Positions 23,380 to 40,159 of a DNA stretch of 42,277 nt are shown one piece after another. This DNA is from Plebeiibacterium marinum (GTDB taxonomy: Bacteria; Bacteroidota; Bacteroidia; Bacteroidales; Marinilabiliaceae): the NCBI RefSeq assembly GCF_026013615.1, contig NZ_JAPDPI010000046.1, positions 1-42,277 of the forward strand. The letters run 5' to 3'. The translations under genes were made by a program, and so were the position numbers. A model generated the notes under the pieces. The model had not been told where the DNA came from. It searched no databases and saw only the letters and a program-made list of their open reading frames with translations. Position 1 is the stretch's first letter. Every line of letters starts with the position of its first letter.

Positions 23380-23445
23380 GTGTGAATGATGTAAATTATT
23401 TGCAGAGTTATGTAATGCTTTCTTTTTTAAGTCAACATAACTTTA
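23380..23445 (+). promoter_or_regulatory. Shared-regulon promoter A (DUF5670-Hsp20)
   Basis: GTGTGAATGATGTAA at 23380-23394, 14 nt, TATGTAATGC at 23409-23418, 19 nt, then TAACTTTA (-7 box) at 23438-23445. The ATG of the first gene is 33 nt further. The same spacing is found at three other promoters in this window. The two upstream elements share ATGTAA 21 bp apart, as for tandem half-sites of an AraC-type activator. Confidence 0.75.
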
Positions 23446-23478
23446 TCAAAGAGTTTTATATACAAAAGATAAGGAATC

Positions 23479-23640
23479 ATGAAAAATTCACTTTATGTTA
23501 TTGCAGCATTATTGCTGGTAATTTGGGGAATCATTTTTTGGGGATTTAATTCCTCAGGAGCTGTTCATTTAATACTTGCAGTAGCGGGTTTAATCATACT
23601 TATCAGGCTTATTTTTGGTAAGCAATTATCGAGTAAATAA
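23479..23640 (+). CDS. DUF5670 (lmo0937-like) small membrane protein
   Basis: A 53-residue protein with two membrane helices separated by a short FNSSGAVH loop: MKNSLYVIAALLLVIWG at the start and a second helix ending in RLIFGKQ. This pattern is characteristic of the lmo0937/DUF5670 family of stress-induced membrane peptides. ATG 23479 is preceded by AAGGAA. It is the first gene after promoter A and lies 26 nt before hsp20, so the two are probably co-transcribed. Confidence 0.8.
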   Translation: MKNSLYVIAALLLVIWGIIFWGFNSSGAVHLILAVAGLIILIRLIFGKQLSSK

Positions 23641-23666
23641 TTTATTTAATCTTAAAAACAGCGAAA

Positions 23667-24095
23667 ATGTATCCAAAACTAAAAAATCCAACATTATTTC
23701 CTGCTTGGACGGATAACTTTTTCTCCAGTCCAATGTGGCCAAATGAAGAATCTTACGTGGGGGTATCAATACCTGCAGTGAATGTTAAAGAGACTATTGA
23801 TGAATTTGATATTGAAATGGCAGTACCAGGCATGGAGAAAACAGACTTCAAACTTGATATTGACCACAATGTACTTACCATCTCATCTGAAAAAATATTA
23901 AAAAAAGAAGATGACAATGAAAAGTTCACACGTAGGGAATTTAGTTACACATCCTTTAACCGTTCATTTACATTGCCAACCAGTGTAGATGAAGAGGCTA
24001 TTAAAGCTACGTACAAAGAAGGCATTTTAATTATTAATATTCCCAAAAAGGAGGAAGCAAAGGAAAAAGGTCCAAAACATATCGAAATTGGATAA
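23667..24095 (+). CDS. Hsp20-family small heat-shock protein
   Basis: A 142-residue alpha-crystallin-type chaperone. The N-terminal 40 residues are hydrophobic/aromatic. The alpha-crystallin domain runs from about 35 to 130 (VNVKETIDEFDIEMAVPGMEKTDFKLDI ... FSYTSFNRSFTLP ... ATYKEGILIINIPKKE), followed by a short tail. It binds unfolded proteins without ATP. It follows the DUF5670 gene by 26 nt and is under promoter A. Confidence 0.93.
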   Translation: MYPKLKNPTLFPAWTDNFFSSPMWPNEESYVGVSIPAVNVKETIDEFDIEMAVPGMEKTDFKLDIDHNVLTISSEKILKKEDDNEKFTRREFSYTSFNRSFTLPTSVDEEAIKATYKEGILIINIPKKEEAKEKGPKHIEIG

Positions 24096-24099
24096 ATGG

Positions 24100-24128
24100 C
24101 AAAGGGTGTCTTTAAACAGGCACCTTTG
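24100..24128 (+). terminator. Hairpin after hsp20, possible weak terminator
   Basis: CAAAGGGTGTCT can pair with AGGCACCTTTG across a 6-nt loop, with one bulge and one G-U pair. Only a short T-rich tract follows. A 29-codon frame at 24096-24185 overlaps it and is probably not a gene. Confidence 0.4.
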
Positions 24129-24209
24129 TTAGAGTTCGACACTCTTATTTTGGATGAAATGGTTGGGATTGCTGAAAATTTATAAACAGAAATAAAAAGG
24201 AAAAATATT

Positions 24210-25076
24210 ATGAATTATTATTTATTAATGATTCCGGTTGTAATTATTTTCTTTGCAGGAATCAGAATTGTAAGGCCTACTCACCGTGGGCTTATTGAGA
24301 GGCTTGGAAAATATCATAGTTTTGCCAATCAAGGATTTCACTGGATTATACCACTTATCGACAGACTCTATCTGGTAAATGTAACCGAACAAATGATAGA
24401 TGCAGAGCCACAGGAAATCATCACAAATGATAATTTGAATGCCAGTGTTGATGCACAGGTTTACTTCAGGGTGAAAGCTGAAGAGGAAAATGTTAAGGAA
24501 TCAATCTACAATGTAAACGACTACACCTGGCAGATTGTGAACCTTGCTCGTACAACACTGCGTAATATCATCGGCACACTGACACTTAAATCGGCCAACA
24601 GTGAACGTGGAAAAATTAACGATGCTCTATATAAAACTCTGCATGACGAAACCAAGAGTTGGGGTATTAACATTGTACGCACCGAGTTGAAAGAAATTGA
24701 CCCGCCAAAAGATGTGCAGGAAACGATGAATAAAGTAGTAAAAGCTGAAAACGAAAAAATAGCAGCCATCGATTCGGCTACAGCAGCTGAAACAGTAGCT
24801 GATGGCGTGAAACGAGCTAAAATTAAAGAAGCTGAAGGTTATAAGCGCGCTAAAATCCTGCATGCAGAAGGAGAAGCAGAAGCTATAAAGCTGGTAAACG
24901 AAGCTGCCGACAAATACTTTATTGGGAACGCTCAAATGTTAAGAAAATTGGAGGCATTGGAAGCATCCTTAGGAAACAATGCTAAAATAGTTATTCCAAC
25001 AGGTTCTGAATTAGTGAATATTATCGGAGATATGGCAGGATTACTTCCGCTTGAAAGAAAACACAAAAACGATTAG
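24210..25076 (+). CDS. SPFH/band-7 (stomatin/slipin-like) membrane protein
   Basis: A 288-residue protein with one N-terminal membrane segment (YYLLMIPVVIIFFAGI), then the SPFH domain (RPTHRGLIERLGKYHSFANQGFHWIIPLIDRLYLVNVTEQ ...) and a C-terminal coiled coil rich in Ala/Glu/Lys with EAEGYKRAKILHAEGEAEA. Proteins of this type form oligomeric rings or microdomains and often protect against stress or scaffold membrane proteases. No NfeD partner gene is adjacent. It follows Hsp20 on the same strand after 114 nt. Confidence 0.9.
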   Translation: MNYYLLMIPVVIIFFAGIRIVRPTHRGLIERLGKYHSFANQGFHWIIPLIDRLYLVNVTEQMIDAEPQEIITNDNLNASVDAQVYFRVKAEEENVKESIYNVNDYTWQIVNLARTTLRNIIGTLTLKSANSERGKINDALYKTLHDETKSWGINIVRTELKEIDPPKDVQETMNKVVKAENEKIAAIDSATAAETVADGVKRAKIKEAEGYKRAKILHAEGEAEAIKLVNEAADKYFIGNAQMLRKLEALEASLGNNAKIVIPTGSELVNIIGDMAGLLPLERKHKND

Positions 25077-25249
25077 GATGTAACATAGGTGAAATCTTGA
25101 ATAACTTAAAAAATTCGTTTGCAATATAGAAATGGTAATTATTCAAAATCAGGAAAAATGAAACAACCGTGATAAAAGTTTTCTCACATGCGAGGATGAT
25201 TATTTTTTTGGGAGTTCCATCTGATATTTAAACGACTAAATATAAACGA

Positions 25250-25723
25250 ATGAAAAAGGTATTAATTGCTTTGGATTATGGACCTACTGCGCAAAAGGTA
25301 GCGGAAGTGGGATTCTCAATGGCAAAAGCCATGAATGCTAAGGTTATATTATTGCATGTAATAATAGATCCGGTTTACTATTCTACTCCAGATTATTCTC
25401 CGATTATGGGCTTTACCGGTTTTATGGACGTGAGTCCTTTGGAATTAAATAGCATTGAAACACTTCAATTGGCATCGGAACATTATCTTGAAAAAATGAA
25501 ACAACACCTTGGTGACAAGAACATCCAAACAGTCGTAAAGGAAGGTGAGCAAGCCGAAACGATCATAAAGGCTGCAACAGACTATCATGCTGATATTATT
25601 GCTATTGGTTCCCACAGTCATAAGTGGTTAGCAGAAATGCTCGTTGGAAGCGTAACTGAGAAAGTTTTAAAGCAATCTTCTATACCGCTTTTCATTATTC
25701 CAACGAGAAAACAAGAAGGATGA
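25250..25723 (+). CDS. UspA-family universal stress protein
   Basis: A 157-residue single-domain Usp: KKVLIALDYGPTAQKVAEVGFSMAKAMNAKVILLHVI at the N-terminus, and AIGSHSHKWLAEMLVGSVTEKVLKQSSIPLFIIP near the end, matching the ATP-binding G-2x-G-9x-G-S/T pattern loosely (GSHSHKWLAEMLVGSVTEKV). It probably binds ATP and supports survival under stress or oxygen limitation. No copy of the shared promoter was found before it. Confidence 0.9.
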   Translation: MKKVLIALDYGPTAQKVAEVGFSMAKAMNAKVILLHVIIDPVYYSTPDYSPIMGFTGFMDVSPLELNSIETLQLASEHYLEKMKQHLGDKNIQTVVKEGEQAETIIKAATDYHADIIAIGSHSHKWLAEMLVGSVTEKVLKQSSIPLFIIPTRKQEG

Positions 25724-26000
25724 ACTTGATACTTCATCTGTAAGGATGATTCTATATGGAATGAATGATTTACCAAAGCAATGTCATTTTGCTACTGTTT
25801 TTATTCCAGATAGATAAGTGCTTAGTACCCCAATTATCCTCATCGTAAAGTTGACGCAATACTAAATGTGAAAGATGCAGAAGTAATGCAATAGATCAAA
25901 GTGGTTTAGAGACTGTAGTAATGGTAACAGAAATGTTTAGAAGAGTTTTGGGATTGCAAATGATGTTATTGTGTGAATATAATACTTGAACAACTTATCA
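25724..26000. other. Non-coding stretch after uspA
   Basis: No intact gene is visible; all frames are broken. It may be the eroded upstream part of the phosphoketolase remnant that follows, but I could not match it to that protein by eye. Confidence 0.4.
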
Positions 26001-26218
26001 ATACGTTCCATTACCACCTACTTTGACATGCCCGTTCTCAGCAAGCTTGACAGATTTCATCTGGTTCAGGATGTAATCAATAGGATACCGGATTTGGGCA
26101 ATAAGAGAGCACACCTCAAGGCTTATGCAGGATGAACCTGTCAAACACAAGCAATACAATGAAAAATATGGTCTGGATATGCCTGAGATATTTAACTGAA
26201 AATGGAATGATCCAATAT
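26001..26218 (+). pseudogene. xfp: Phosphoketolase C-terminal remnant
   Basis: From 26004 the frame reads [18 protein letters not shown] then [18 protein letters not shown], matching the conserved end of xylulose-5-phosphate/fructose-6-phosphate phosphoketolases. A shift near 26120 moves the match to another frame: [25 protein letters not shown], then TGA where Trp is expected (family ends roughly as N-W-K-W), then KWN. Only about 70 of some 800 codons remain, with a frameshift and a nonsense codon. Confidence 0.75.
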
Positions 26219-26254
26219 GAAAATGCAAAGCGCTCCAACTTAAAAACACCTGAC

Positions 26255-26692
26255 ATGAAAATATTTAAACGTCTTACAAACAAGCAAACAGATGCATTGT
26301 TAAAATACCCTGCATATATTTCAATTCTGGCGGCAAGTCTTGATGATACCCTTGATAAAGCCGAAAAAAAAGCTGCCATTGAATTTGCACATATAAAAAC
26401 ATTTACCTCCGATCCGCTTCTCACGAAATTTTATTTGGAGGCGGACAAAGTCTTTCGAAAAAATCTGGAACAACTCGAAAACGAACTGCCGAAAGATAAA
26501 ATTAGCAGGGAGGCAGCTATCAAAAAGGAATTGGCAAATCTTGATAAAATACTAAAAAGGCTGGGGAAAAAGTACGTTATTGATGTGCATCAAAGTATGA
26601 AATCATTTAAAGATCATATTTCAAGAGCACATCACAATGTCCTGATTGATTTTATCTTTCCCATACCCATACCTGGATTGACGGATGGGTAG
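26255..26692 (+). CDS. Hypothetical stress-locus protein, helical
   Basis: A 145-residue protein, mostly charged helices (FKRLTNKQTDALLKYPAYISILAASLDDTLDKAEKKAAIEFAHIKTF), with a short hydrophobic tail containing IFPIPIPGL. I do not recognise the family. The frame stays open upstream to 26132, but 26132-26218 falls within the phosphoketolase remnant, so ATG 26255 is the likely start. It sits 45 nt before the proton ATPase gene and may be co-transcribed with it. Confidence 0.6.
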   Translation: MKIFKRLTNKQTDALLKYPAYISILAASLDDTLDKAEKKAAIEFAHIKTFTSDPLLTKFYLEADKVFRKNLEQLENELPKDKISREAAIKKELANLDKILKRLGKKYVIDVHQSMKSFKDHISRAHHNVLIDFIFPIPIPGLTDG

Positions 26693-26737
26693 AGGTAATT
26701 CCATAATATAAAACAGCACATTAATCGATTGTGAAGT

Positions 26738-29209
26738 ATGAAACCAAATACAAAGAGTAATAGAGATGCCGATGCAAATTCCAATGTAGCAGACGATATT
26801 ACGTCTCTTTCTGTATCCGAATTGATGAAAAAACTGGGTTCTTCACAGGAAGGCCTTACACAGGCCGAAGCAACAAAAAGGCTGTCTCAATACGGACCCA
26901 ACGAGATAGAAGAAAAGAAAACCAATTTATTACTAAAGTTCCTCACCTATTTTTGGGGCCCTATACCTTGGATGATTGAGGCAGCAGTAATCTTATCAGC
27001 AGTTGCCAGGCATTGGCCTGATTTTTTCATTATCCTTATTTTGCTAATCGCTAATTCAGTAATAGGATATTGGGAAGAACATGAAGCAGGCAATGCTATT
27101 GAAGCCCTTAAAGCCAAACTGGCTGTAAAAGCAAGGGTGAAAAGGGATGGAAAATGGGTCAATCCATCAGCATGTGAACTGGTGCCTGGTGATATTATCC
27201 GGTTACGGTTGGGAGATATTGTTCCTGCAGATGCTCGTTTGTTGGAAGGAGATTCCATTGAGGTCGATCAATCTGCATTAACGGGCGAATCACTTCCCAC
27301 AACACGTAATCCTGGTGAAGCTTTATATTCCGGATCAGTTATTCGCCGTGGTGAGATTGGGGCTCTGGTTTATGCTACCGGTACAAACACCTATTTTGGC
27401 AAAACAGCACAATTGGTGCAGGAAGCGCATACTGTCAGCCATTTTCAGAAAGCGGTATTAAAAATAGGCAACTACCTTATTTATCTCGCAGTTACTTTGG
27501 TGGCAATAATTATTGCAGTAGCCATTTATCGTGGCGACCCGATTTTATCCACCTTGCAGTTTGCTTTGGTACTCACCATTGCAGCAATACCGGTTGCTAT
27601 GCCGACCGTTTTATCGGTAACGATGGCAGTTGGAGCTCGCTTACTGGCGAAAAAAGAGGCCATTGTAAGTCGATTGGTGGCCATTGAAGAACTGGCCGGA
27701 GTTGACTTGCTTTGTGCAGACAAAACCGGTACCCTTACCCAAAATAAATTAACGCTGGGTGATCCTTTCTTTATGGATAATATTACCGGTGGCCAGGTGA
27801 TCTTGAATGGGGCATTGGCATCGCGAGCCGATAATAATGATTCCATTGATCTGGCAGTACTTGGAGGTCTTAAAAATAATGATGAATTGAATAACTATGA
27901 AGTGGTTCATTTCCAACCTTTCGATCCGGTACACAAGCTCACAGAAGCTACTGTTAAAGATAAAGATGGCAAGAAATTTAAAGTAACCAAAGGAGCACCG
28001 CAAGTAATTCTTGAATTGGTTCATAATACCGATCAAATCAAGTCTGTTGTGGATGAGGCCGTCAATGAATTTGCAGCTCGTGGATTTCGCTCATTGGGTG
28101 TTGCCCATACCAATGGAGAAGGCAAATGGCAGTTCGATGGAGTGTTGCCTCTGTTCGATCCTCCAAGAGAAGATGCAGCGGAAACAATCGCTATTGCACT
28201 CAAAATGGGAGTTAAAATTAAAATGGTTACAGGCGATGCATTGGCCATTGCTCAAGAAACTGCCCAAAAATTGGGTATGGGCTCGTTAATTTATGATGCC
28301 AGAGGATTGGGTGATTCAAAACGAGTCGAGACTGAAGAAGTGGCCACGTCTATCGAAAAGGCCGACGGTTTCGCGCAGGTATTTCCCGAACACAAGTTTC
28401 ACATTGTAGATGTGTTGCAAAAAATGGGTCACATTGTTGGTATGACAGGCGATGGCGTAAATGATGCGCCTGCATTAAAAAAAGCCGATTGCGGTATTGC
28501 AGTCTCCGAAGCAACCGATGCCGCCCGGGCTGCTGCATCTATTGTACTGATGGCTCCGGGCCTGTCGGTAATTATTGATGCCATTAAAGAAAGCCGCAAT
28601 ATATTCCAGCGAATGAACAGTTACGCCATCTACCGTATAACCGAAACACTTCGCATTTTGCTATTTATGACTTTATCAATACTGGTATTCAATTTTTATC
28701 CGGTAACAGCCGTCATGATTGTGATGCTGGCCCTTCTAAACGATGGCGCCATCCTGTCAATCGCCTATGACAAGGTTAAATACAAAGATCAACCCGAAGC
28801 ATGGAATATGAGAATGGTGTTGGGTATTTCAACAGTGCTGGGTGTAATTGGTGTGATCTCCGCATTTGGTTTATTTTATCTGGGTGAACGTGTTTTTCAT
28901 CTCGGCCGCGAACACATCCAAACCTTAATGTATTTGAAACTCTCAGTTGCAGGTCACCTTACCATCTTTTTAACCCGAACACGTGGCCCATTCTGGTCTA
29001 TACGACCTGCCCGAATTTTGTGGATTGCCGTAGTCGGCACCCAAATCATATCAACTCTGATAGCCGTTTATGGATTGTTTATGACTCCACTTGGCTGGGG
29101 CTGGGCACTGTTTGTTTGGGGGTATGCACTGGTTTGGTTTCTGTTCAATGATCGTTTGAAATTATTGGCATATCGGGTTATTGATCCCGGAAAAACAAAT
29201 ACACAATAG
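26738..29209 (+). CDS. P3A-type plasma-membrane H+-ATPase
   Basis: An 823-residue P-type ATPase. It has a Cation_ATPase_N segment (GLTQAEATKRLSQYGPNEI), the actuator motif TGES at residues 182-185, phosphorylation motif DKTGTLT (Asp328), nucleotide-binding KGAPQ, hinge TGDGVNDAPALKKADCGIAV and about ten membrane helices. The short length, lack of extra N-terminal metal-binding domains and PVAMPTVLS in helix 4 point to the proton-pumping P3A group, related to fungal/plant Pma1 and found in some bacteria and archaea. It would export H+ at the expense of ATP under acid or energy stress. Codon use is slightly more GC-rich than the surrounding genes. Confidence 0.88.
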   Translation: MKPNTKSNRDADANSNVADDITSLSVSELMKKLGSSQEGLTQAEATKRLSQYGPNEIEEKKTNLLLKFLTYFWGPIPWMIEAAVILSAVARHWPDFFIILILLIANSVIGYWEEHEAGNAIEALKAKLAVKARVKRDGKWVNPSACELVPGDIIRLRLGDIVPADARLLEGDSIEVDQSALTGESLPTTRNPGEALYSGSVIRRGEIGALVYATGTNTYFGKTAQLVQEAHTVSHFQKAVLKIGNYLIYLAVTLVAIIIAVAIYRGDPILSTLQFALVLTIAAIPVAMPTVLSVTMAVGARLLAKKEAIVSRLVAIEELAGVDLLCADKTGTLTQNKLTLGDPFFMDNITGGQVILNGALASRADNNDSIDLAVLGGLKNNDELNNYEVVHFQPFDPVHKLTEATVKDKDGKKFKVTKGAPQVILELVHNTDQIKSVVDEAVNEFAARGFRSLGVAHTNGEGKWQFDGVLPLFDPPREDAAETIAIALKMGVKIKMVTGDALAIAQETAQKLGMGSLIYDARGLGDSKRVETEEVATSIEKADGFAQVFPEHKFHIVDVLQKMGHIVGMTGDGVNDAPALKKADCGIAVSEATDAARAAASIVLMAPGLSVIIDAIKESRNIFQRMNSYAIYRITETLRILLFMTLSILVFNFYPVTAVMIVMLALLNDGAILSIAYDKVKYKDQPEAWNMRMVLGISTVLGVIGVISAFGLFYLGERVFHLGREHIQTLMYLKLSVAGHLTIFLTRTRGPFWSIRPARILWIAVVGTQIISTLIAVYGLFMTPLGWGWALFVWGYALVWFLFNDRLKLLAYRVIDPGKTNTQ

Positions 29210-29241
29210 CTGTGTAGTTAATCCTAATTTGTGCCTTAAAG

Positions 29242-29307
29242 GTGTGAATGTTGTAATATATATTTGAAGTTGTGTAACGCCTTTTGTTGAGCATGGAGGT
29301 AACTTGG
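29242..29307 (+). promoter_or_regulatory. Shared-regulon promoter B (coiled-coil stress protein)
   Basis: GTGTGAATGTTGTAA at 29242-29256, 14 nt, TGTGTAACGC at 29271-29280, 19 nt, then TAACTTGG at 29300-29307. ATG 29342 follows after 34 nt. Spacings are identical to promoter A. Confidence 0.75.
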
Positions 29308-29341
29308 GTAAATATTGAATACTAATTTAAAAAATAATACA

Positions 29342-29815
29342 ATGAAAAACAAAGTATTAAAACACCTGACAGTTATTGGTTTTGTTAAAGGCGAAGATTT
29401 AACCAAATGCGAATCTTTAGAGAAAAAAATGGATGAAGCAAAGGAGAAGCTAAACTATGCCAGAAAAGAAGTTGATGAAGCCAAACAAAAACTAATTCTT
29501 GCAAAAAAAGAACTTAGTGAATCAAAGAAAAAACTTGATATTGCTCTTGATGAATCCCTTGAGAAAATTGAGAAAGAGAAAGATATAGTACCCGGTGGAA
29601 TTTTGTTTTCAAGGGGTTTCAGTACCAATGCTATTAAAAATAAATACGAAGATGCAATAGCAGAATTGGAATTAAAAAAGAACGAAATAAGCAAAAGAAT
29701 CGAAACGTATAAAAATGATGGTTCTGAGAAATGGGATTCTTTTAAACAGAAACTCAACCATGATATGGAAGAACTGGGAAAGGCTTTAAAAAGTTTTACT
29801 GTATATAATCAGTAA
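29342..29815 (+). CDS. Coiled-coil stress protein, sll1863-like
   Basis: A 157-residue protein that is almost entirely coiled coil: two stretches of K/E-rich heptads (residues 18-75 and 90-125) flank a short non-helical VPGGILFSRGFSTN segment. The ending EKWDSFKQKLNHDMEELGKALKSFT resembles stress-response proteins of the sll1863 group. ATG 29342 is preferred over TTG 29315 because it lies at the normal distance from promoter B. It is followed after 38 nt by the antiporter gene. Confidence 0.65.
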   Translation: MKNKVLKHLTVIGFVKGEDLTKCESLEKKMDEAKEKLNYARKEVDEAKQKLILAKKELSESKKKLDIALDESLEKIEKEKDIVPGGILFSRGFSTNAIKNKYEDAIAELELKKNEISKRIETYKNDGSEKWDSFKQKLNHDMEELGKALKSFTVYNQ

Positions 29816-29853
29816 ATTATGTCTTAAATAGTATTTAAAAATCAAAACGTGAT

Positions 29854-30948
29854 ATGATTTTTGCAATTCTCATTGATCCTGTACTTTCCAAATTTGTCAT
29901 ACTGTCAATGATTATTTTGGTTGTAGGTTTTTTGCTCAGGGTAATTAAACAGCCCTCTATCGTAACCTACTTAATTGTAGGTGTTTTGGTTGGGCCATAC
30001 GGTTTTAGGCTTATTACTGATGAGCTTTTAATCACCAATCTTGGGTCACTGGGGTTGGTTTTGTTATTATTTTTTGTTGGAATGGAAATCCATCTGCCAA
30101 ATCTAATTACAAACTGGAGAGTGTCCGTTTTGGGGACCTTAATTCAGATAGGTGTAAGTATAATAATTGTGTGGTTTCTGAGTGCAACTTTTAATTGGAA
30201 AATCAATCAGGTTGTTATGCTGGGTTTTGTTATTAGCTTAAGTAGTACAGCTGTAATAGTAAAACTCTTACAAGAACGAAACGAATTAATGACAAAAGTG
30301 GGTCAAAATGTGCTTGGTGTACTTATCGCCCAAGATATTTTAATTGTACCTATGCTTATCATTATGAGTTATATGGGAGGAGATAAGCCGCATATAACTG
30401 AAATGCTAAAACAGTTAATTGGCGGTGTATTGATTATAGGCATAATCATCTATATTCTTAAAAAGAAGGAAATTAAACTCCCCTTCATGAAATATATTGA
30501 AAAAGACCATGAAGTGCAGGTGTTTGTTGCTTTTACGTTATGTTTTGGGTTCTCGATATTAACAGCGTTTTTTGGCTTGTCATCAGCATTAGGGGCATTT
30601 ATTGCAGGCATTATATTATCATCAACCAAATCGATACAATGGGTACATGACAGCTTGCATGCTTTTAAAATAATGTTTGTTGCTTTATTCTTTGTTTCTA
30701 TAGGGATGTTAATTGATTTGCAGTTTTTAAAAGAGAATGCATTTACCATTGGTTTACTTGTGCTCATTGTTTTTATTGTTAATAATTCCATTAATGTTTT
30801 GACCATGCGTATTTTTTGTAAAGATTGGAAAACAAGTTTTTATACCGCCGCATTGCTATCACAGATTGGAGAATTCAGTTTTATTTTAGGATCATCAGGT
30901 TATTATTCAGGTATTATTAAAATTGGCTATGTCACAGTAAAAGGTTGA
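29854..30948 (+). pseudogene. CPA2-family (KefB-like) antiporter, interrupted by an IS
   Basis: The frame encodes 357 native residues of a cation:proton antiporter: about ten membrane helices, GVLVGPYGFRLI, FFVGMEIHLPNL, the SLSSTAVIVKLL helix and a SQIGEFSFILGSSGYYSG segment. The last eight codons (GYVTVKG and stop) come from the inserted IS end. The remainder continues beyond the IS at 31980 in the -1 frame ([21 protein letters not shown]) and stops near 32079, joined to a fumarase remnant. Without helices 11-12 the protein is probably inactive. Intact homologues exchange Na+ or K+ for H+. Confidence 0.85.
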
Positions 30949-31972
30949 ACTTTATAAAGAGAAGCTTTCTTTCCTCTTAATAAAAGGATTTCAGGTCTAA
31001 TGTCAGAGGCAAACTCGTCAAGTTCTCTAAACCAGGATAAATAATTCTCTAAGTATTTTGTGGCTACCCCATGAAAGCGATATAACCATTCTTTAAGGCG
31101 ACTGTGGTAGGCATTCACATTTTGTATGTGGACTATATCTTTTATTATCCTTATGCCCTTTGACAAGTTTAGGCAACCATGTCTATAGCCTTTTTCCTTA
31201 ATAAACTTCTTATAGGTAGATTTCCCATCGCTACAGAAAAGAATGTCAGAACTCACTTTATCTTTTAAATAATCCTTTAAGTTATTCCCTGTGAAGTTCT
31301 CGAAAATATGATCTATAGTGTTTGCTTGTCGATCTCGACAAACTAAAACACAGACTTGCTCCTTGCTTAAGCCTCTTTGTGATGCTTTCCCTCCCCGTTT
31401 ACGCGGTTTTCTATTTAGTTTTTTGTTTCCCTTCTCTGATTTTAGGAAATAGGTCTCATCCGCTTCAATAATACCGCTTAGCTTTTCTGGAGCAACAGAT
31501 TTTGCATTGGCTAAAAAGCGATGCCTCCACCTAAAAGATGTATTACGATGTACATTGCATTTCATTGCCGCTTTTCTAACGCTGATTCCAGAAACTAAAC
31601 AGGAGGAATATTCTAACCATTGCTCTTTTTTACGCAATCTGGAAAGGGGGGTGTTAGTAAGACTATTATAAGTTCTTTTGCACTCCTTGCATCGATACCT
31701 TTGTAACCCACTTCGCTTTCCCCATCGTTGTTTTTTCTGGCTTTTACAATGAGGACAACTAAGTTCTTGAAACGGAGTTTCTATATTTGCTGCCACTTTA
31801 TTGGAAAGTTCAATTGATTGCAAACTTTCTTTTAAACGTCTAAACTGGTCTGAATTCAATCTATCGACCTGTAATAGTAGTTTGTGGAATGTTCTTGCTT
31901 TCATAGCTATTGGTTTTTTACCAAGTTATGACCAAATCAGATAGTTGTCAACCTTTAAGAATGACATAGCCT
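30925..31972 (-). mobile_element. IS1595-family insertion sequence with intact ends
   Basis: A 1048-bp element bounded by inverted repeats beginning GGCTATGTCA at both ends and sharing AAAGGTTGA further in (30925 onward; reverse strand from 31972). It is flanked by a perfect 8-bp target duplication, TTAAAATT, at 30917-30924 and 31973-31980, the length expected for IS1595-family elements. Clean ends and an intact transposase indicate a recent insertion. Confidence 0.92.
30927..31904 (-). CDS. IS1595-family (ISXO2-like) transposase
   Basis: A 325-residue transposase. It has an N-terminal zinc ribbon (CPHCKSQKKQRWG...YRCKECKRTYN), a helix-turn-helix (VRKAAMKCNVHRNTSFRWRHRFL), and the ISXO2 DDE-type core with IIEADETYF (first Asp), LFCSDGKSTYK (second Asp) and QNVNAYHSRLKEWLYRFHGVATKYLENYLSWF (N/E region). 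It is intact and fills the element; its 3' end reaches into the left inverted repeat. Confidence 0.93.
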   Translation of the reverse strand: MKARTFHKLLLQVDRLNSDQFRRLKESLQSIELSNKVAANIETPFQELSCPHCKSQKKQRWGKRSGLQRYRCKECKRTYNSLTNTPLSRLRKKEQWLEYSSCLVSGISVRKAAMKCNVHRNTSFRWRHRFLANAKSVAPEKLSGIIEADETYFLKSEKGNKKLNRKPRKRGGKASQRGLSKEQVCVLVCRDRQANTIDHIFENFTGNNLKDYLKDKVSSDILFCSDGKSTYKKFIKEKGYRHGCLNLSKGIRIIKDIVHIQNVNAYHSRLKEWLYRFHGVATKYLENYLSWFRELDEFASDIRPEILLLRGKKASLYKVQPFTVT

Positions 31973-31979
31973 TAAAATT

Positions 31980-32082
31980 TACGACTACCAATTAGTAATT
32001 AGTGCTATTGCGCTTACCTTGTTTCTAAGCCCATTTTGGATCAATCTGTCGAGGAAAATTATCGGGGGTGGAGGGTAATCAA
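31980..32082 (+). pseudogene. Antiporter 3' remnant right of the IS
   Basis: In the frame starting at 31980 the sequence reads [21 protein letters not shown] and then [11 protein letters not shown] before a stop. This continues the CPA2 antiporter seen left of the IS, but is offset by one base after removal of the IS and one target copy. The gene was therefore also frameshifted or truncated. Confidence 0.65.
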
Positions 32083-32316
32083 GTTGTAGTTTATAGCAAT
32101 AACAAACCAGGGGCATCGATAATGCCGGGTAAAGTCAATCCCAAACAAGTAGAGGCTGTCACAATGGTTTGCTTTCAAATATTGGGCAACGACACAACTA
32201 TTTATACGGCCGGTTCAGGCGGCCATTTCGAATTCAATGTTTTTAAACCGGACATGATAAGTGAAATTTTAGGGTCTACTACTCTTATGGTAATTGTTGG
32301 CCATGTATTTAAATAG
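32068..32316 (+). pseudogene. Fumarase (fumC-like) fragment
   Basis: The frame from 32068 encodes [17 protein letters not shown] and a following [22 protein letters not shown] segment, the signature of the fumarase/aspartase superfamily, closest to class II fumarase. Only about 70 of some 460 residues remain and both ends are foreign or degenerate. It abuts the antiporter remnant, so a deletion joined the two. Confidence 0.8.
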
Positions 32317-32401
32317 AAGCGTTAAATCATTGACTAATATTAAAATTAAAGCTAATTTGTGGATAATTAGTTTTTTTTATTTAGCGAAATTTATTTTAAA
32401 A

Positions 32402-32593: not shown

Positions 32594-32618
32594 TTTATAT
32601 AACCATTTAAAAATCTTG

Positions 32619-32644
32619 AGTCCCGCAATTTGCGGGACTTTTTT
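32619..32644. terminator. Terminator between csp and the convergent glycosyltransferase gene
   Basis: AGTCCCGCA at 32619-32627 pairs with TGCGGGACT at 32631-32639 across a 3-nt loop, followed by six T's. The glycosyltransferase gene on the other strand ends at 32643, so it may serve both. Confidence 0.85.
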
Positions 32645-33656: not shown

Positions 33657-33721
33657 TGTTTCAGTTTTAAAGTTGTTAGCTACAGTAATCAGTTACTGCG
33701 GCTACTGCCACAATCATTGAT

Positions 33722-34651
33722 TCAACCCATGGCTGGTCTACTATTGTTCAAGCAATGGTCGACTAATACATCAATATTTGCAGTTCCCACACACATGACT
33801 GTATCAGCTCCACCCCAATAAATTTTCAGGTTGCCGTCATCTTCTAAAACTGCACCACAACAAAAAACTACATTGTGTACATAGCCTGATATTTCATAAT
33901 CTTCTTCAGGTTGGAGAATCCATTCGTCTCCAACAGCAATAATTACAGATGGATCCAACAGGTTGTGCAAAGCTGCACCCAGGCGGTATACACAGCCGTC
34001 CATTGTAGGAAAAACGCCATGATATATATGTAACCAACCATGAGGTGTTTTTATGGGTGGTGCTCCCGGACCAATTTTCATCTCATCCCAATGGTATTGC
34101 ATGGGTTTCATGATAAGTTTCGACTCGCCCCAATATTTTAAATCAGGCGAATACGATATCCAGATTGACCATGGCGATATCTCCGAATGAGGACGATCCA
34201 GTCGGGCGTATAATCCGTTAATTTTTTCAGGGAAGATGACTACGTTTCGATAGTCGGCTTCAGTAATTAATGAAAATCGCTCAACGGTTTTAAAATCTTT
34301 AGTTTTTGCCAGCCCAATTCGAACCCCATGTTTTGAATAGGCACTATATGTAATCAAATATTCACCATCGATTGATACAATGCGGGGATCTTCTATTCCA
34401 TAGGTTTCATATTCTTTAAAAATTCCCTTGGTAGCCGGCACCATAAATGGCTTATCATCTACTTTAAAGTTGTAACCATCTTCACTGTCGGCTATTCCCA
34501 ATATACTACGCCCATTTAGCTTATGTGACCTGAATATCATGATATATTTACCGTGGTGCTTAACTACTGCAGCATTGTGTACTGTTGCTACCGGATAAGG
34601 CACATCCATCTTTGTAAGAATAGGATTATATTGATATCTGGTTATTAGCAT
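33722..34651 (-). CDS. GH130 family mannoside phosphorylase/hydrolase (short form)
   Basis: A 309-residue protein covering only the GH130 beta-propeller: NPILTKMDVPYPVATVHNAAVV, YGIEDPRIVSIDGEYLITYSAYS, GPGAPPIKTPHGWLHIYHGV and the late YEISGYVHNVVFCCGAV are conserved family blocks. No signal peptide is seen. It overlaps no neighbour but starts 6 nt after the GT4 fusion gene, so the two are in one operon. It probably acts on beta-mannosides made by the neighbouring transferases. Confidence 0.88.
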   Translation of the reverse strand: MLITRYQYNPILTKMDVPYPVATVHNAAVVKHHGKYIMIFRSHKLNGRSILGIADSEDGYNFKVDDKPFMVPATKGIFKEYETYGIEDPRIVSIDGEYLITYSAYSKHGVRIGLAKTKDFKTVERFSLITEADYRNVVIFPEKINGLYARLDRPHSEISPWSIWISYSPDLKYWGESKLIMKPMQYHWDEMKIGPGAPPIKTPHGWLHIYHGVFPTMDGCVYRLGAALHNLLDPSVIIAVGDEWILQPEEDYEISGYVHNVVFCCGAVLEDDGNLKIYWGGADTVMCVGTANIDVLVDHCLNNSRPAMG

Positions 34652-34657
34652 TGGTTA

Positions 34658-36976
34658 TTATGAATTAGATTGCCAGGCTCTTTTGGGGCTTTGTGGCAAT
34701 TGACCATCATCTCTTACATCAGGATTTTCCTCATTGCTTTTAATATCGATGGTGTGAAACTCTTCGTAAGCCTGTAAAACAGTTAGATGGGAAATTAAAT
34801 ACGCCAACGAACTTTCAGCACCCTGATTACGGTTTACACCATAACTTTCAAAGCCATCGCAACAACCGTTGGTCTCAAAATCGTACAAACTCATTCTTAA
34901 ATCGTTCTCACCTAAGAACCATAAAAATGAGATGTACAGTTTGCTCAGGTATTCCTTGTCTTTTGTAACAATAAATGCCTGATGGTACATTAAAACCATG
35001 GCCATAGCATCGATGGGTTGTTGCGCAAACACTGAGCGTTCGCCATCTTTTTTATACCATTTTTCATTGCCAATTACTGACAGGTAATTTTCATTAAGTG
35101 TGTGTGCGGTTAGAAATTGCATTGAGTTTATTGCAACCTCCAATACTTTATCTTCGTTCAGAATTTCGGCAGAGTGTAACAGTGCCAGTGGCAATATACC
35201 ATTATCATAAGCCAATAATGATTCAAACCAATGCCAATCTGTAGTTTCGTTTTCGTCATAGTGCTTAATTAGCTTGTGGGCCATATTTCGTAACCTTTCC
35301 GTCATGGAATCATCTGATGGATTCGATCTAAGATAATAGCAAACACCAATCATGGTATTTGCAATGCTACGTATGGATTTTAAGTTTTTAAAGTTAGGTG
35401 CAGCATTAAAAAACACTTCTCTTCCGGTTTGATAATAGGCATCATTGGGTGCGTTTCCGAGTAAGTACCCCAATGCCCATATTGTTCGGCCAAATGAATC
35501 TTCAGAACCTATTTCGTCGAGATAATGTCTGCTAAAGCTTAAAAAGTTTCTGAACGTGCCATCCTTATTTTGCATATAGTGGATATAGCTTAAATAAACA
35601 GGAGACAATTCAATTGCCCTGGAGTCTTTTATTTGTTTGTGCGCCATTAATACCATCAGTAAAGCACGGGCATTGTCGTCGAGGCAGTAACCTTCTTTAA
35701 GATTTGGGATGCCAAATTTTGCATGCTGAATAATACCCGTGTCATCAGTTAATCTATTGATGTGTGCCATTGAAAAAGGTGGCAGAATAAGCAGATCCAT
35801 TATGGTATCCTTATTTACTATTTTCTCGACTTTCTGGGTTAATGCCTGATGAGCTACTCTCAAATACTTCTGGCCGATTTTTGGCCATGTTATTTTTTGT
35901 CCGTATGCCCTGGCGTTACTTTTAAGCAAATTTAATTTTTCAGGATGGTCAAACAGTTCTGTTATAATGGAGGAAAGTTCCTCTGGATCATTAAAGTTAA
36001 AAAGTCGGCCTCTGTCATCGGCTAATAGTTCCTCGGCATGCCAATATGGTGTGGATACTACTGCTGATCCAACTCCAACTGCATAGGATAATGTACCACT
36101 GGTAATTTGTGCTTCGTTTAAATAAGGTGTAATATAAATGTCGGTAGCCGACAGATATTTGAACAGGTCTTTAATATCCAAAAATTCATTTAGAAAAACG
36201 ACATTATTCTCAAGTTTTAGGTTTTTAACAAGACGCATTAAAAAAATACGGTATTCTTCGCCCGAGTGCCTGACAACATTGGGATGAGTTTTACCTAAAA
36301 TCAAATAAATAACATTCGGATGCCTTTCGATCACTTTTGGCAACGCTTTTATTACTGTTTCAATGCCTTTGTTACGTCCAATAAAGCCGAAAGTCATTAG
36401 TACTTTTTTGGTGTCAATTTTTAATTCTTTTCGTGATATCTGACTGTCAAATTGTAAGTTAGGGACACCGTGGTCAATGAATTCAATCTTATCAGCAGGT
36501 ACCTGATAAATTTCGACCAAAAATTCAATGGCCTTATGACTCATCACAACGATTTTACTGGCCATTTTACAGATTTCCTGTAAAACTGCTTTCTCATTAT
36601 AGGAAGGTGTTTTGAGAATAGTATGTAATGTAACTATAAGAGGGACTTCAAGCCGATAAAGTAAAGGTAATATATAAACACCACTCTGGCCGCCAAAAAT
36701 GCCAAATTCGTGTTCGAGTATGCAAAGGTCAGCCCCGCTTAAGTTGATTAATTTTACAGCTTGCAAATAATCTTCCTGTCTGTTTTGTCTAATAATACCT
36801 TTTACTTCATCGGGGTATTCATATTCATTTGGAAAATCACTTAATGCGATAACAAACCCTTCGTTTGAATCGTTTCCATTGTCAGGATTATTAACCATTG
36901 AGTTGAACAAATCATTTGTAAATGTTCCAATACCACATTCTCTGGGAGGGTATGTTCCTATAAATGTTAATTTCAT
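34658..36976 (-). CDS. GT4 glycosyltransferase fused to an (alpha/alpha)6-barrel domain
   Basis: A 772-residue fusion. Residues 1-380 are a GT4 transferase (FIGTYPPRECGIGTFTNDL, LEHEFGIFGGQSG, FGFIGRNKGIETVIKALP, SGTLSYAVGVGSAVVSTPY). Residues about 395-745 form a helical repeat domain resembling glycoside hydrolase-like (alpha/alpha)6 barrels: DDNARALLMVLMAHKQ, SFGRTIWALGYLL, WHWFESLLAYDNGILPLALLHSA and FAQQPIDAMAMVLMY. It could extend and trim the same glycan. It is the first gene of the operon with the short GH130 and the GT4. Confidence 0.8.
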   Translation of the reverse strand: MKLTFIGTYPPRECGIGTFTNDLFNSMVNNPDNGNDSNEGFVIALSDFPNEYEYPDEVKGIIRQNRQEDYLQAVKLINLSGADLCILEHEFGIFGGQSGVYILPLLYRLEVPLIVTLHTILKTPSYNEKAVLQEICKMASKIVVMSHKAIEFLVEIYQVPADKIEFIDHGVPNLQFDSQISRKELKIDTKKVLMTFGFIGRNKGIETVIKALPKVIERHPNVIYLILGKTHPNVVRHSGEEYRIFLMRLVKNLKLENNVVFLNEFLDIKDLFKYLSATDIYITPYLNEAQITSGTLSYAVGVGSAVVSTPYWHAEELLADDRGRLFNFNDPEELSSIITELFDHPEKLNLLKSNARAYGQKITWPKIGQKYLRVAHQALTQKVEKIVNKDTIMDLLILPPFSMAHINRLTDDTGIIQHAKFGIPNLKEGYCLDDNARALLMVLMAHKQIKDSRAIELSPVYLSYIHYMQNKDGTFRNFLSFSRHYLDEIGSEDSFGRTIWALGYLLGNAPNDAYYQTGREVFFNAAPNFKNLKSIRSIANTMIGVCYYLRSNPSDDSMTERLRNMAHKLIKHYDENETTDWHWFESLLAYDNGILPLALLHSAEILNEDKVLEVAINSMQFLTAHTLNENYLSVIGNEKWYKKDGERSVFAQQPIDAMAMVLMYHQAFIVTKDKEYLSKLYISFLWFLGENDLRMSLYDFETNGCCDGFESYGVNRNQGAESSLAYLISHLTVLQAYEEFHTIDIKSNEENPDVRDDGQLPQSPKRAWQSNS

Positions 36977-37059
36977 TTTTATCCTCTTTTCTTTTTAAAT
37001 TGATACATGCAATACTTAACTATAGAGAATTAACCCATAGAGTGAGAGAAATACCTGAG

Positions 37060-37179
37060 TTAGACTTCGCTTTTTTTGTTTTTTTTTCTGCGCTTGGCTT
37101 CTCTGGCTAACCGCTTCTCTTTTAGTGTTTTTTCGGGTGCTTTCTTGTTGTTTTTTTTACTATCTTTTTCTTTTGACAT
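37060..37179 (-). CDS. Small lysine-rich protein, 39 aa
   Basis: From ATG 37179 the frame encodes 39 residues, of which about half are Lys or Arg (MSKEKDSKKNNKKAPEKT, then KEKRLAREAKRRKKNKKSEV). The frame is open further to 37245, but that part overlaps the kinase gene. It may bind nucleic acid or be a small ribosome-associated protein; no family was recognised. Low complexity makes it less certain. Confidence 0.5.
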   Translation of the reverse strand: MSKEKDSKKNNKKAPEKTLKEKRLAREAKRRKKNKKSEV

Positions 37180-37207
37180 GATGTTTGTTTTTAGTTTAAA
37201 TTTATTT

Positions 37208-37987
37208 TTATGGTTTTCCCAGAGGTAAAGTAAATTTAAACTCACTTCCTTTTCCTGGTTTACTTATTATCCATATTTTACCATTGTGAATGTCTATAAA
37301 CTCCTTACAAAGTGATAGACCAAACGCAGTTCCTGTTTCACTATTTGTGCCTGGCAATGAGTTGTTTTTGCCAGATTCAAAAAGGATATTACTTACTTCA
37401 TGTTCCATTCCAACGCCATAATCTTTAATCGTAACTTCAAGAAACCTATTGTTCTTACTCAATGTACTTATGTCGATCTTTCCGTTGGCATGTGAGTACT
37501 TAATGGCATTGCTAATTAAGTTTCTCAATATGCTTTTAACCATGTTCTTATCAGCAAACAATTTTATTTCAGAAAAAACAGGTAGAGTAATTTTGATATC
37601 TTTCAGCGATGCAAATAATTCAAGATTATTAGTCTCTTCAATCAGGATTTCTTTTAAGTCAATAATTTCAGGTTGAAATGAGTTATTATAGTTTTCAGCC
37701 AAAGCCCATATAAGAATACCATCAAGTAGTTTCATTGTTTGTTCAGCAGATTTTAGAGCGATTTCAATATATTCTTCAACCTTATTTCTATTCCATTCAA
37801 ATGCACCTTCTTTTAACAATCCTAAAAAACTTATCATGGAACTCATTGGTGATTTAATATCATGCCCAATTATTGCTATAAGCTTCTTATTGTCGGCAAT
37901 GATTTTTTTTTCTTTAATCTCAATTTGCTTTGAAAACTGATGGTTTGATATAACTTCTGAATGATTAATAAGCTTTAGCTCTTTCAT
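37208..37987 (-). CDS. Soluble sensor-less histidine kinase
   Basis: A 259-residue kinase without membrane or sensory domain. It has a short helical lead, HisKA with His42 (IIGHDIKSPM), then the ATPase domain with NLISNAIKYS, KDYGVGM (G1) and GTAFGLSLCKEF (G2). Architecture and motifs are close to the kinase at 9066-9914. No response regulator gene is visible. It lies between the small basic protein and the cupin gene on the same strand. Confidence 0.87.
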   Translation of the reverse strand: MKELKLINHSEVISNHQFSKQIEIKEKKIIADNKKLIAIIGHDIKSPMSSMISFLGLLKEGAFEWNRNKVEEYIEIALKSAEQTMKLLDGILIWALAENYNNSFQPEIIDLKEILIEETNNLELFASLKDIKITLPVFSEIKLFADKNMVKSILRNLISNAIKYSHANGKIDISTLSKNNRFLEVTIKDYGVGMEHEVSNILFESGKNNSLPGTNSETGTAFGLSLCKEFIDIHNGKIWIISKPGKGSEFKFTLPLGKP

Positions 37988-38017
37988 GATTCTTCATTTC
38001 ATTAATATAAAATCCTT

Positions 38018-38368
38018 TCAAATTTGAACTGCTTCATAACCGCTCTTAATGGTAGTTGAAATCATTTTAAACCTCTGGTTTGCTATAATATTATTTGATG
38101 TATGAGCAGGGATTATGATGCCTTCACCGGTTTTCAGTATGTTTTTATTTTCGTCAATTACTACTTCTGCTGTACCTTCAATAATTTGAATGAACGTATC
38201 GAAGGGCGATATTTTTTCTGCAAGAGCTTCTCCGGTATCAATAGCTACAACACTTACATTTCCGGTGGTTTTTCTTATGATGGTTTTTGTTACCACCGAA
38301 TTCGGAACATATTCTATTATTTCAATTAAAATATGCGATTTTGATTTTTCCATTTCAGTGGTTTCCAT
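38018..38368 (-). CDS. Cupin-domain protein
   Basis: A 116-residue protein with a cupin core: FDTFIQIIEGTAEVVID and TGEGIIIPAHTSNNIIANQRFKMIST match the two cupin motifs, but the metal-binding His residues of the first motif are replaced, so it may bind ligand rather than metal. Promoter C lies 17 nt upstream, so the gene belongs to the shared regulon. The histidine kinase gene follows after 30 nt and may be co-transcribed. Confidence 0.8.
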   Translation of the reverse strand: METTEMEKSKSHILIEIIEYVPNSVVTKTIIRKTTGNVSVVAIDTGEALAEKISPFDTFIQIIEGTAEVVIDENKNILKTGEGIIIPAHTSNNIIANQRFKMISTTIKSGYEAVQI

Positions 38369-38384
38369 ACGCTTTGTTTTGAAT

Positions 38385-38450
38385 TAAAGGTACTTTAAGC
38401 AATAGAACCATGTGTTATACTATTGATGGTTTAATTTACATCATTCACAC
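38385..38450 (-). promoter_or_regulatory. Shared-regulon promoter C (cupin and kinase)
   Basis: On the minus strand: GTGTGAATGATGTAA (38450-38436), 14 nt, AGTATAACAC (38421-38412), 19 nt, TACCTTTA (38392-38385), then 16 nt to ATG 38368. The spacing equals that of promoters A and B. The first element lies just beyond the radical SAM stop codon. Confidence 0.72.
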
Positions 38451-38453
38451 CTT

Positions 38454-39941
38454 TTACCGGGATTGTCTGAGTCCATATATTGTTCTGAAATGATATCCAT
38501 AAATAGTAAACGTTATTGCATCCGAGAATAATCCCGGCTTGTTAAATAGTGTCCAGATTAGTAATTTCCAATACTCAATTCTTCCTTTATTTACAATCCC
38601 AATAACATACATCGATTTTAAGAAAGCATTTATAAGAGAGAAATTGATTTTATTTCGCCTTTTGTCAAGCCTATTGTAATTCATCAACAATCGTCGGAGT
38701 CTTTTATAATAAGGTTTAGCTGCGTATATATTATGAATTATTTTTTTATATCCGTCCAATAATTCATCCAGATCCATTTTGGGTATAAAATTCATTGATG
38801 AATCGGTATTGTTACCCGTTGCTTCAGTGGTCAATCTGTTTTCGGTTTCCAACCTCTTGTATAAAACTGTGTTTTTTGGGGCATTTAATAGTCCAACCAT
38901 GGCCGAAACAATTCCACTCTTTTGAATAAAATCGATTTGCCGCTGAAAAACACTGGGGGTATCACTGTCAAAGCCTACAATAAAGCCTCCTGATACCTGT
39001 AGTCCTGAATTTTGTATTGCTCTTATGGACTCCAGTAAATCGCGATTTTTGTTTTGCACTTTATTACACGTACGAAGCGCTATTTCATCGGGTGTTTCAA
39101 TCCCAATAAAAGTTGAGGTAAAACCTGTTTCAATCATTAAGGACATTAATTCTTTATCATCAGCCAGATCAATTGAGCTCTGAATATTAAAGACAAAAGG
39201 ATACTGATGCTTGTGCAGCCATGTTTTTAATGTTGGTAAAAAATGTGTCTTAATTTCCTTTTTATTACCTATAAAATTATCGTCAACAATCGAAACAGGG
39301 CCTCGCCAGTTTAGTTGATATAATGCCTCCAGTTCCTTTATTGTTTGACTGGTGTTTTTCATTCTTACCTTGTGACCCAGAAGAGACGTAATTTCACAAA
39401 AGTCACATGAAAAAGGACACCCTCGCGATACCTGTATGTTCATAAAGACATATTTCTTCAACTCCAACAAATGATAATCAGGTACAGGCGAAAGGGATAG
39501 ATCGGCATATTGATCGGTTGTATATATTCTTTGGGGCTGCCCTATAGACAAATCTGCAAGAAACAAGGGTAATGTTATTTCAGCCTCATTTAAAACAAAA
39601 TGATCAATGAGAGGGTAGTTTTTGTATTCCTGGGTAAAAAGTGGACCGCCGGCAACAATTTTTTTCTTATGTTTTACACATTCTGAAATAGTTTTTTTGA
39701 CAGATTCTTTTTGAATATACATAGCACTGATGAATACATAATCGGCCCAGACAACATCCTTTAAATCTAGTTCAGAAACATTAAGGTCGATCAGTTTTTT
39801 CTGCCAATTGGTGGGTAGCATTGCCGATACGGTAATCAATCCAAGAGGAGGAACAGCAGCTTTTTTTGAAATAAACTTTAACGCATGCTTGAAACTCCAA
39901 AAGGAATCGGGATATAGTGGATATACAAATAATATTTTCAT
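38454..39941 (-). CDS. B12-binding-domain radical SAM protein
   Basis: A 495-residue protein. Residues 1-150 are a cobalamin-binding-like domain (KILFVYPLYPDSFWSF ... AVPPLGLITVSAMLP ... WADYVFISAMYIQ). The radical SAM core has the 4Fe-4S motif CPFSCDFCEI and downstream VDDNFIGNKKEI, FTSTFIGIETPDE and VSGGFIVGFDSDT, followed by a helical C-terminal region. Such enzymes carry out methylations or rearrangements of lipids, pigments or small molecules. The frame is open to TTG 40046, but ATG 39941 gives the typical family start; the longer form is possible because promoter D ends about 40094. Confidence 0.85.
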   Translation of the reverse strand: MKILFVYPLYPDSFWSFKHALKFISKKAAVPPLGLITVSAMLPTNWQKKLIDLNVSELDLKDVVWADYVFISAMYIQKESVKKTISECVKHKKKIVAGGPLFTQEYKNYPLIDHFVLNEAEITLPLFLADLSIGQPQRIYTTDQYADLSLSPVPDYHLLELKKYVFMNIQVSRGCPFSCDFCEITSLLGHKVRMKNTSQTIKELEALYQLNWRGPVSIVDDNFIGNKKEIKTHFLPTLKTWLHKHQYPFVFNIQSSIDLADDKELMSLMIETGFTSTFIGIETPDEIALRTCNKVQNKNRDLLESIRAIQNSGLQVSGGFIVGFDSDTPSVFQRQIDFIQKSGIVSAMVGLLNAPKNTVLYKRLETENRLTTEATGNNTDSSMNFIPKMDLDELLDGYKKIIHNIYAAKPYYKRLRRLLMNYNRLDKRRNKINFSLINAFLKSMYVIGIVNKGRIEYWKLLIWTLFNKPGLFSDAITFTIYGYHFRTIYGLRQSR

Positions 39942-40093
39942 GCCTATTTTTCTAGCGTTGATTTGTTTAATTGCATTGGAAAAATAAGTTTTGAGTAAAC
40001 TATTGAGGAAGAACTGGCTATAAATGAAGTTTAAGATTTTAGCCAAGTTGTAAAATTCTCTAATGCATTAAAATTGCTTCAACTATTTAAAGT

Positions 40094-40159
40094 TAAAGTT
40101 CGTGAAACAATAGAATTAAGGCGTTATAGAATTCTAATAAAAAATTACATCATTCACAC
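40094..40159 (-). promoter_or_regulatory. Shared-regulon promoter D (radical SAM gene)
   Basis: On the minus strand: GTGTGAATGATGTAA (40159-40145), 14 nt, TCTATAACGC (40130-40121), 19 nt, GAACTTTA (40101-40094; one base off TANCTTTA). The first element overlaps the stop codon of the AraC-type regulator. The radical SAM gene is downstream. Confidence 0.7.

Follow-up and report, generated by a model that had tools for sequence, protein, structure and literature searches.

A conserved two-part promoter site in Bacteroidota and a neighbouring AraC-type gene as its candidate regulator

In Escherichia coli, AraC acting at araI1-araI2 performs class II activation of araBAD; the protein uses its AraC-type DNA-binding domain on tandem direct half-sites 21 bp apart, a short distance from the promoter and with the downstream half-site in the -35/-33 region. 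To our knowledge, Bacteroidota are without the sigma factors on which general stress responses depend in other bacteria, and we know of no settled account of how they coordinate their CsbD, Hsp20, Dps and ice-binding-type genes. Here we analyse four promoters of one architecture (promoters A to D) in a 42,277-nt stretch of DNA from Plebeiibacterium marinum (contig NZ_JAPDPI010000046.1, positions 1 to 42,277, forward strand; hereafter the window), together with a neighbouring gene for an AraC-type protein. The four sites are very probably operators from which this protein activates, a reading drawn from sequence comparison.

The window resembles the E. coli arrangement in its AraC-type DNA-binding domain, in its direct half-sites 21 bp apart close to a promoter and in the placement of the downstream half-site. 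It differs in the N-terminus of the regulator, which binds arabinose through a cupin domain in E. coli AraC and is copper-chaperone-like here; in its putative targets, which are stress-type genes, many of them in some genomes, rather than one sugar operon; and in the promoter itself, which is of the Bacteroidota -7 type. The SigB (Bacillus, Listeria) and RpoS (E. coli) regulons share with the genes behind our sites the CsbD, DUF5670/lmo0937, ferritin/Dps-type and DUF892/YciE types. This second likeness rests on gene content, the regulators there being sigma factors and the one proposed here an AraC-type activator.

The 15-mer GTGTGAATGWTGTAA (block 1) occurs in exact copies at 23380 (+), 29242 (+), 38436 (-) and 40145 (-) and was found in none of 100 shuffles. 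All four copies share one register, in which block 1 is followed by 14 nt, block 2 (TNTRTAAYRC), 19 nt and an 8-nt -7-like box, with a gene downstream of each site:

Promoter A, 23380..23445 (+): block 1 23380-23394, block 2 23409-23418, -7 box 23438-23445 (TAACTTTA); 44.1 bits
Promoter B, 29242..29307 (+): block 1 29242-29256, block 2 29271-29280, -7 box 29300-29307 (TAACTTGG); 39.9 bits
Promoter C, 38385..38450 (-): block 1 38450-38436, block 2 38421-38412, -7 box 38392-38385 (TACCTTTA); 38.8 bits
Promoter D, 40094..40159 (-): block 1 40159-40145, block 2 40130-40121, -7 box 40101-40094 (GAACTTTA); 41.2 bits

Four promoters of identical spacing on both strands had been proposed in an initial annotation of this DNA, and that description is exact; the TANCTTTR-like -7 box proposed with it keeps its fixed place at all four sites, but two of the four boxes depart from that sequence. 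Scored with a weight matrix trained without the window, the four sites reached 38.8-44.1 bits, whereas the next-best place in the window reached 8.0 bits and lacked a -7 box. The ATGTAA half-sites annotated 21 bp apart in promoter A are likewise real, and no other direct-repeat shift does as well as 21 bp: when block 1 was compared with shifted matrix columns (311 sites, 25 shifts), values were positive only at 21 bp (0.50) and 9 bp (0.10), which fits tandem half-sites for the two helix-turn-helix (HTH) motifs of AraC-type proteins. The sites thus have class II AraC-type geometry, with direct half-sites 21 bp apart and the downstream one in the -33/-35 region.

The P. marinum assembly (5.6 Mb, 187 contigs, 98.22% complete) contains four matches to the two-block pattern when up to two mismatches are allowed, all in the window; 34 near-matches to block 1 lie outside it, and none of the 26 examined has block 2. 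Because the pattern is confined to the window, the regulon in this genome would amount to one island of about 17 kb. Confinement to a single island, in a window that also holds an integrase and an insertion sequence (IS)-type transposase, is what one would see if the four copies were a recently duplicated intergenic repeat of a mobile island with no regulatory role. The copies, however, have only the motif positions in common and differ in their spacers, and across many genera both blocks and the -7 box are kept whereas the sequence separating block 2 from that box is near-random, which makes a mere duplication barely credible.

At the same tolerance the two-block pattern was found in 95 of 395 genomes of the same class, the richest holding 24, 23 and 21 sites; a reversed control pattern matched about 27 of the 395, with at most 2 matches per genome, so that single matches can be chance. 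The full promoter pattern including the -7 box (one mismatch) occurred in 26 of 395 genomes of the phylum and its control in none. When 156 sites collected without reference to a promoter were aligned (at least one of them false, at window position 18673 with 3.3 bits), the -7 box emerged at one fixed place with the consensus CAnCTTTGta; the control pattern gave one match in the same 0.74 Mb. A one-genome-per-species scan confirmed at least 580 relatives of the AraC-type protein, and the best 80 loci, chosen around the AraC gene and many of them from metagenome-assembled genomes, were kept (hereafter the 80 best loci). In 161 sites from these loci, ANNTTT stands at offset 59 in 131 and at offset 58 in 16, with no more than 7 at any other offset. 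An open reading frame (ORF) starts 40-99 nt past block 2 in 107 of 147 cases, and in 114 of 153 in a second set. Motif matches are therefore not scattered without relation to start sites: they keep a fixed distance to the -7 box, with an ORF 40-99 nt on.

The promoter consensus of the housekeeping sigma factor ABfr of Bacteroides, as published (PMC7366714, PMC2483708), has TAnnTTTG at -7 and TTTG at -33. At our sites TTTG is found at offsets 30-38 in only 2 of 161, because block 2 occupies that place, and this geometry agrees with the earlier suggestion that block 2 lies in the -33 region and that an activator replaces the -33 contact. The same place could instead be read as the -33 element of an alternative, extracytoplasmic function (ECF) sigma factor, with block 1 alone as the activator site, since the conserved TGTAAC sits where TTTG is expected and position 1 of the -7 box departs from the consensus (C in 44 and T in 21 of the 83 sites with ANNTTTG at offset 59). 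Yet the two blocks form a repeat at 21 bp, the pattern that double binding by a single protein would produce, and ANNTTTG is still near the -7 consensus TAnnTTTG of sigma ABfr (PMC7366714); we regard an ECF promoter as very unlikely.

The gene that we propose for the regulator stands next to the last of the four promoters:

40154..40714 (-): AraC-type regulator with an N-terminal copper-chaperone-like domain; candidate regulator of the four promoters

The gene immediately precedes promoter D and has its stop codon in the TGA of that site's GTGTGA (GTGTGAAT, 40154-40159 (-)). The protein matched 207 of the 395 class genomes (E 1e-10, with up to eight candidates scored per genome). Of 107 hits 106 were kept, including the window and four plasmid loci, with two or three homologs at a few loci. 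A site scoring more than 12 bits lies within 300 bp of 68 of these 106 homologs, compared with 0-1 of 106 in five shuffled sets (first-order Markov sequence, as also for the 80 best loci). The positions of the 75 hits are stereotyped. In 28 cases, as in the window, the site is at the AraC stop codon; 20 hits lie on the same strand 80-130 bp upstream, another 10 upstream and divergent and 2 farther upstream, and 15 follow just past the stop. In a tree of 104 of the proteins, whose bootstrap had not settled, the window protein belongs to a 74-member clade (support 100/99), and sites accompany 58 of its 74 members versus 10 of the 30 other proteins (Fisher p 2.5e-5).

The 80 best loci, which include Draconibacterium, Ancylomarina, Chitinophaga, Niastella, Flavobacterium, Mucilaginibacter, Algoriphagus and Aquimarina, gave a similar picture, with 194 sites in 74 of them versus one in shuffled DNA. 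The TGA of the site is the AraC stop codon in 23 (L264, L265, L268 and 20 others); at other loci the site lies upstream on the same strand (19), up to 100 bp past the stop (8) or in divergent orientation (5). Several of the closest relatives keep the order AraC-site-cupin, and L264 has AraC-site-radical SAM-site-cupin, as the window does. Among genomes at least 90% complete, those with an AraC match at E 1e-60 or better carry three or more sites in 14 of 73 cases, versus 5 of 266 for the others (p 7e-7, from hand-copied counts), those five being G168, G220, G273, G093 (AraC at 3.9e-45) and G355 (AraC at 1.0e-58). The site-near-AraC counts for the 106 homologs, the tree and the 80 loci are not fully independent of one another, since some of the 123 training sites of the matrix come from genomes that also supply AraC loci, and at least one of the 80 best loci, L297, is the same contig as C121 of G144, the two agreeing in coordinates. 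Motif, fixed spacing, conservation and adjacency to one AraC clade were all computed directly, and they make the neighbouring AraC-type gene the strongest candidate for the regulator of the sites.

Several observations weigh against this assignment. Adjacency of AraC gene and site is a correlation, and it is incomplete: the window gene itself has no site upstream, 16 of the 74 clade members and 20 of the 30 homologs outside the main clade have none within 300 bp, and at the 80 best loci the site is elsewhere, not adjacent to the AraC gene, in 19 and absent in 6. The window -7 boxes score 2.3-5.2 bits, compared with often 8-14 in many relatives, partly because their final G is absent. The start of block 1 (columns 0-9) also has an inverted match to the spacer (columns 16-25) of 0.46 over 10 columns, which our model leaves unexplained; an inverted, Crp/Fnr-like symmetry was considered and rejected, its best value lying at the edge of the tested range, versus 0.50 for the direct repeat, and the spacer being judged too variable for a second block. 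Single-sequence and profile searches found no close AraC homolog in three motif-rich draft assemblies, G220 (24 sites, the most among the 395 class genomes; 99% complete), G273 (7 sites, 98%) and G168 (7 sites, 94%), and three such absences are more than incompleteness alone leads one to expect. The same searches found none in the motif-bearing G206 (70% complete) and G326 (52%), and only a distant or partial AraC in G183, G209, G320 and the complete G093. Either the AraC gene is missing from such assemblies or another protein can use the sites.

Such a protein could be a different regulator, for example a response regulator, often encoded near the AraC-type protein or working with it. Besides the absences in G220, G273 and G168, the site cluster of G220 has a response-regulator domain in 8 of the 57 ORFs scanned (of 61), and neither that scan nor the profile search found a close AraC in G220; response regulators are also the first ORF after 7 of 147 sites. 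At the 80 best loci, however, they show no specific link, with 3 among 150 post-site genes versus 10 among 148 control ORFs. The stereotyped stop-codon and upstream positions belong to the AraC gene, and a 21-bp direct repeat suits AraC proteins. We therefore think a different regulator unlikely and retain the AraC-type protein as the candidate.

For this protein the arrangement suggests a mechanism. An AraC dimer, or two monomers, would bind the two direct half-sites 21 bp apart, a strong GTGTGAATNATGTAAC and a weaker AAnTTRTGTAAC, and the downstream half-site would stand in for the -33 element. The protein would then recruit RNA polymerase by a class II contact at a -7 box weakened from TAnnTTTG to CAnCTTTG. 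In this way it would activate a group of stress and envelope genes, to which many species would add the regulator gene itself or the one that immediately follows it. Its N-terminal domain may sense a signal, perhaps thiol- or metal-related, through Cys13. From the geometry of the sites we infer tandem binding and class II activation without a -33 element; DNA binding, activation, the dimer form and N-terminal sensing are likewise predicted.

The genes that follow the sites point to what such a regulon would do. Among the first ORFs behind 147 sites are ice-binding (14), AraC (14), CsbD (12), response-regulator (7), YceI (4) and OmpA (3) genes and, more rarely, DUF892, ferritin-like and DUF5670 genes (2 each). 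We also sampled 150 of 153 post-site genes at the 80 best loci and 150 of 1012 control ORFs from the same loci, of which two very long ones were dropped to leave 148. The post-site genes include AraC (17), ice-binding (12), OmpA (12), cupin (10), CsbD (8), DUF5670 (6) and glycine-zipper (6) genes, the AraC and cupin counts being raised by the selection of loci that surround an AraC gene. Ice-binding, OmpA, cupin, CsbD and DUF5670 all fall outside the 25 commonest control families, and so have at most two control matches each; the controls include response regulators (10), AraC (8), YtxH (4) and Usp (3). Usp and YtxH genes, two further types shared with the SigB and RpoS regulons, occur near the sites but also among control ORFs of the same loci. 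By its predicted gene families the regulon content is one of stress and envelope protection; given the many ice-binding genes, a response to cold or freezing would fit as well. The reading of a compact stress regulon, first proposed for this DNA, is supported, amended in that the regulon would be confined here to one island; its motif is widespread, and the stress label comes from gene content only.

Since the same site, spacing and type of regulator gene recur in dozens of other Bacteroidota, the two-part control site very probably represents a genuine switch of stress genes, one that is widespread and seems not to have been described. A literature search found no description of this motif or regulator, with subscription papers mostly outside its reach and novelty accordingly not proven.

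In the island, promoter A precedes DUF5670-type, Hsp20, Band 7, Usp and H+-ATPase genes and promoter B an sll1863-like gene and a CPA2 antiporter gene; promoter C precedes cupin and histidine kinase genes and promoter D a B12-binding radical SAM gene. Three of the names (DUF5670, sll1863, cupin) come from sub-threshold or indirect matches.

23479..23640 (+): DUF5670/lmo0937-type membrane protein, 53 amino acids, first after promoter A; NCBIfam lmo0937 16.4 bits (cut-off 30)
23667..24095 (+): Hsp20 small heat-shock protein; Pfam PF00011, E 8e-25
24210..25076 (+): Band 7/SPFH protein
25250..25723 (+): universal stress protein (Usp)
26738..29209 (+): P-type H+-ATPase, plasma-membrane type; NCBIfam TIGR01647, 1068.7 bits
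29342..29815 (+): sll1863-like stress protein; NCBIfam NF052504 below cut-off, E 4e-7; ATG at 29342, TTG start at 29315 possible
29854..30948 (+): CPA2 cation:proton antiporter; 3' end overlaps an IS1595-type transposase gene
37208..37987 (-): histidine kinase, downstream of the cupin gene
38018..38368 (-): cupin protein; Pfam PF07883 just below cut-off, E 1.9e-5
38454..40046 (-): B12-binding radical SAM protein (DUF4070)

Relatives of several of these genes also follow sites elsewhere. The 53-amino-acid protein has no Pfam match, and its BLAST relatives in L145 and L152 follow sites, as do the sll1863-like relatives in L099 and L165. At the 80 best loci a site lies directly upstream of 2 of 7 sll1863-like homologs, of 23 of 34 cupin homologs and of the sole radical SAM homolog counted (L264).

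The island and its surroundings hold further genes. The CPA2 antiporter gene, overlapped at its 3' end by the IS1595-type transposase gene (30927-31904 (-)), may be truncated. A short ORF at 32068-32316 (+), which adjoins a cold-shock protein gene and on visual inspection is similar to the C-terminal portion of class II fumarase/aspartase, is probably a gene remnant. GH130 phosphorylase-type genes stand at the left edge of the island (21824-23293 (+)) and inside it (33722-34651 (-)); GH130 homologs recur at the 80 best loci, with a site directly upstream in 2 of 12. Beside the island, a tyrosine recombinase (7129-8358 (-)), an AbiEi-type antitoxin (14396-15172 (+)) and a HipA-type gene (15679-16954 (+)) are signs of an integrative or mobile region. 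Farther left, the gene at 2540-5593 (+) encodes 1017 amino acids that begin with a caspase (peptidase C14) domain; close to it are genes of the ATPase-like (405-956) and GH108 lysozyme-like (1697-2257) types.

The regulator itself carries an AraC DNA-binding domain with two HTH motifs (PF12833, E 9.5e-15), and AraC-type domains are the top Foldseek hits of its model. This AlphaFold model (mean predicted local distance difference test score, pLDDT, 90.4) has, besides that domain, a ferredoxin-like beta-alpha-beta-beta-alpha-beta order in residues 1-62; folding the N-terminal domain from its single sequence yielded a model of low quality (pLDDT 59), which was not used. The N-terminus looks like a copper-chaperone domain. 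It does not reach the Pfam HMA cut-off (PF00403, 13.4 bits versus 24.8), and Foldseek matches to Atx1/HAH1-type chaperones combine probabilities of 0.97-1.00 with E values of 0.11-0.15, behind the small binder chain of an integrin complex (9dia_C, E 0.023); that these chaperone and binder hits align to the N-terminus is judged from their length. The AraC-type regulator with a CxxC N-terminus named in the initial annotation has both features in the window, but in 53 of 81 aligned proteins the first cysteine is serine (CxxC in 28, SxxC in 53). Cys13 is invariant in those 81 proteins and was read in 102 of the 104 tree proteins.

Paralogs with a chaperone-like N-terminus on plasmids of Runella slithyformis (L171), Aureibacter tunicatorum (L172) and Mucilaginibacter robiniae (L173) adjoin genes for transport of copper or other metals. 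Those of R. slithyformis and M. robiniae align with the window protein over its full length (50.8% and 46.0% identity, respectively) and, like it, keep CxxC. They differ in having no matching site within 300 bp and in their setting, which is a copper-resistance operon with multicopper oxidase and RND efflux genes and, in Mucilaginibacter, also a copper P-type ATPase. A likely history is that of a metal-sensing regulator, a relative of which was turned to another signal.

It is possible, although we hold it as a tentative and somewhat doubtful proposal, that in much of the Bacteroidota a general response for stress and envelope protection is under the master control of an AraC-type activator whose copper-chaperone domain has been repurposed. 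Such an activator would stand where other bacteria have SigB or RpoS and would travel with stress islands between genera. The conserved operator, the fixed promoter geometry and a single regulator clade make the question of stress control in this phylum directly testable in sequenced isolates, which exist for species of Flavobacterium, Chitinophaga, Mucilaginibacter, Niastella and Draconibacterium. The system would also supply an activator-dependent promoter architecture for work in Bacteroidota.

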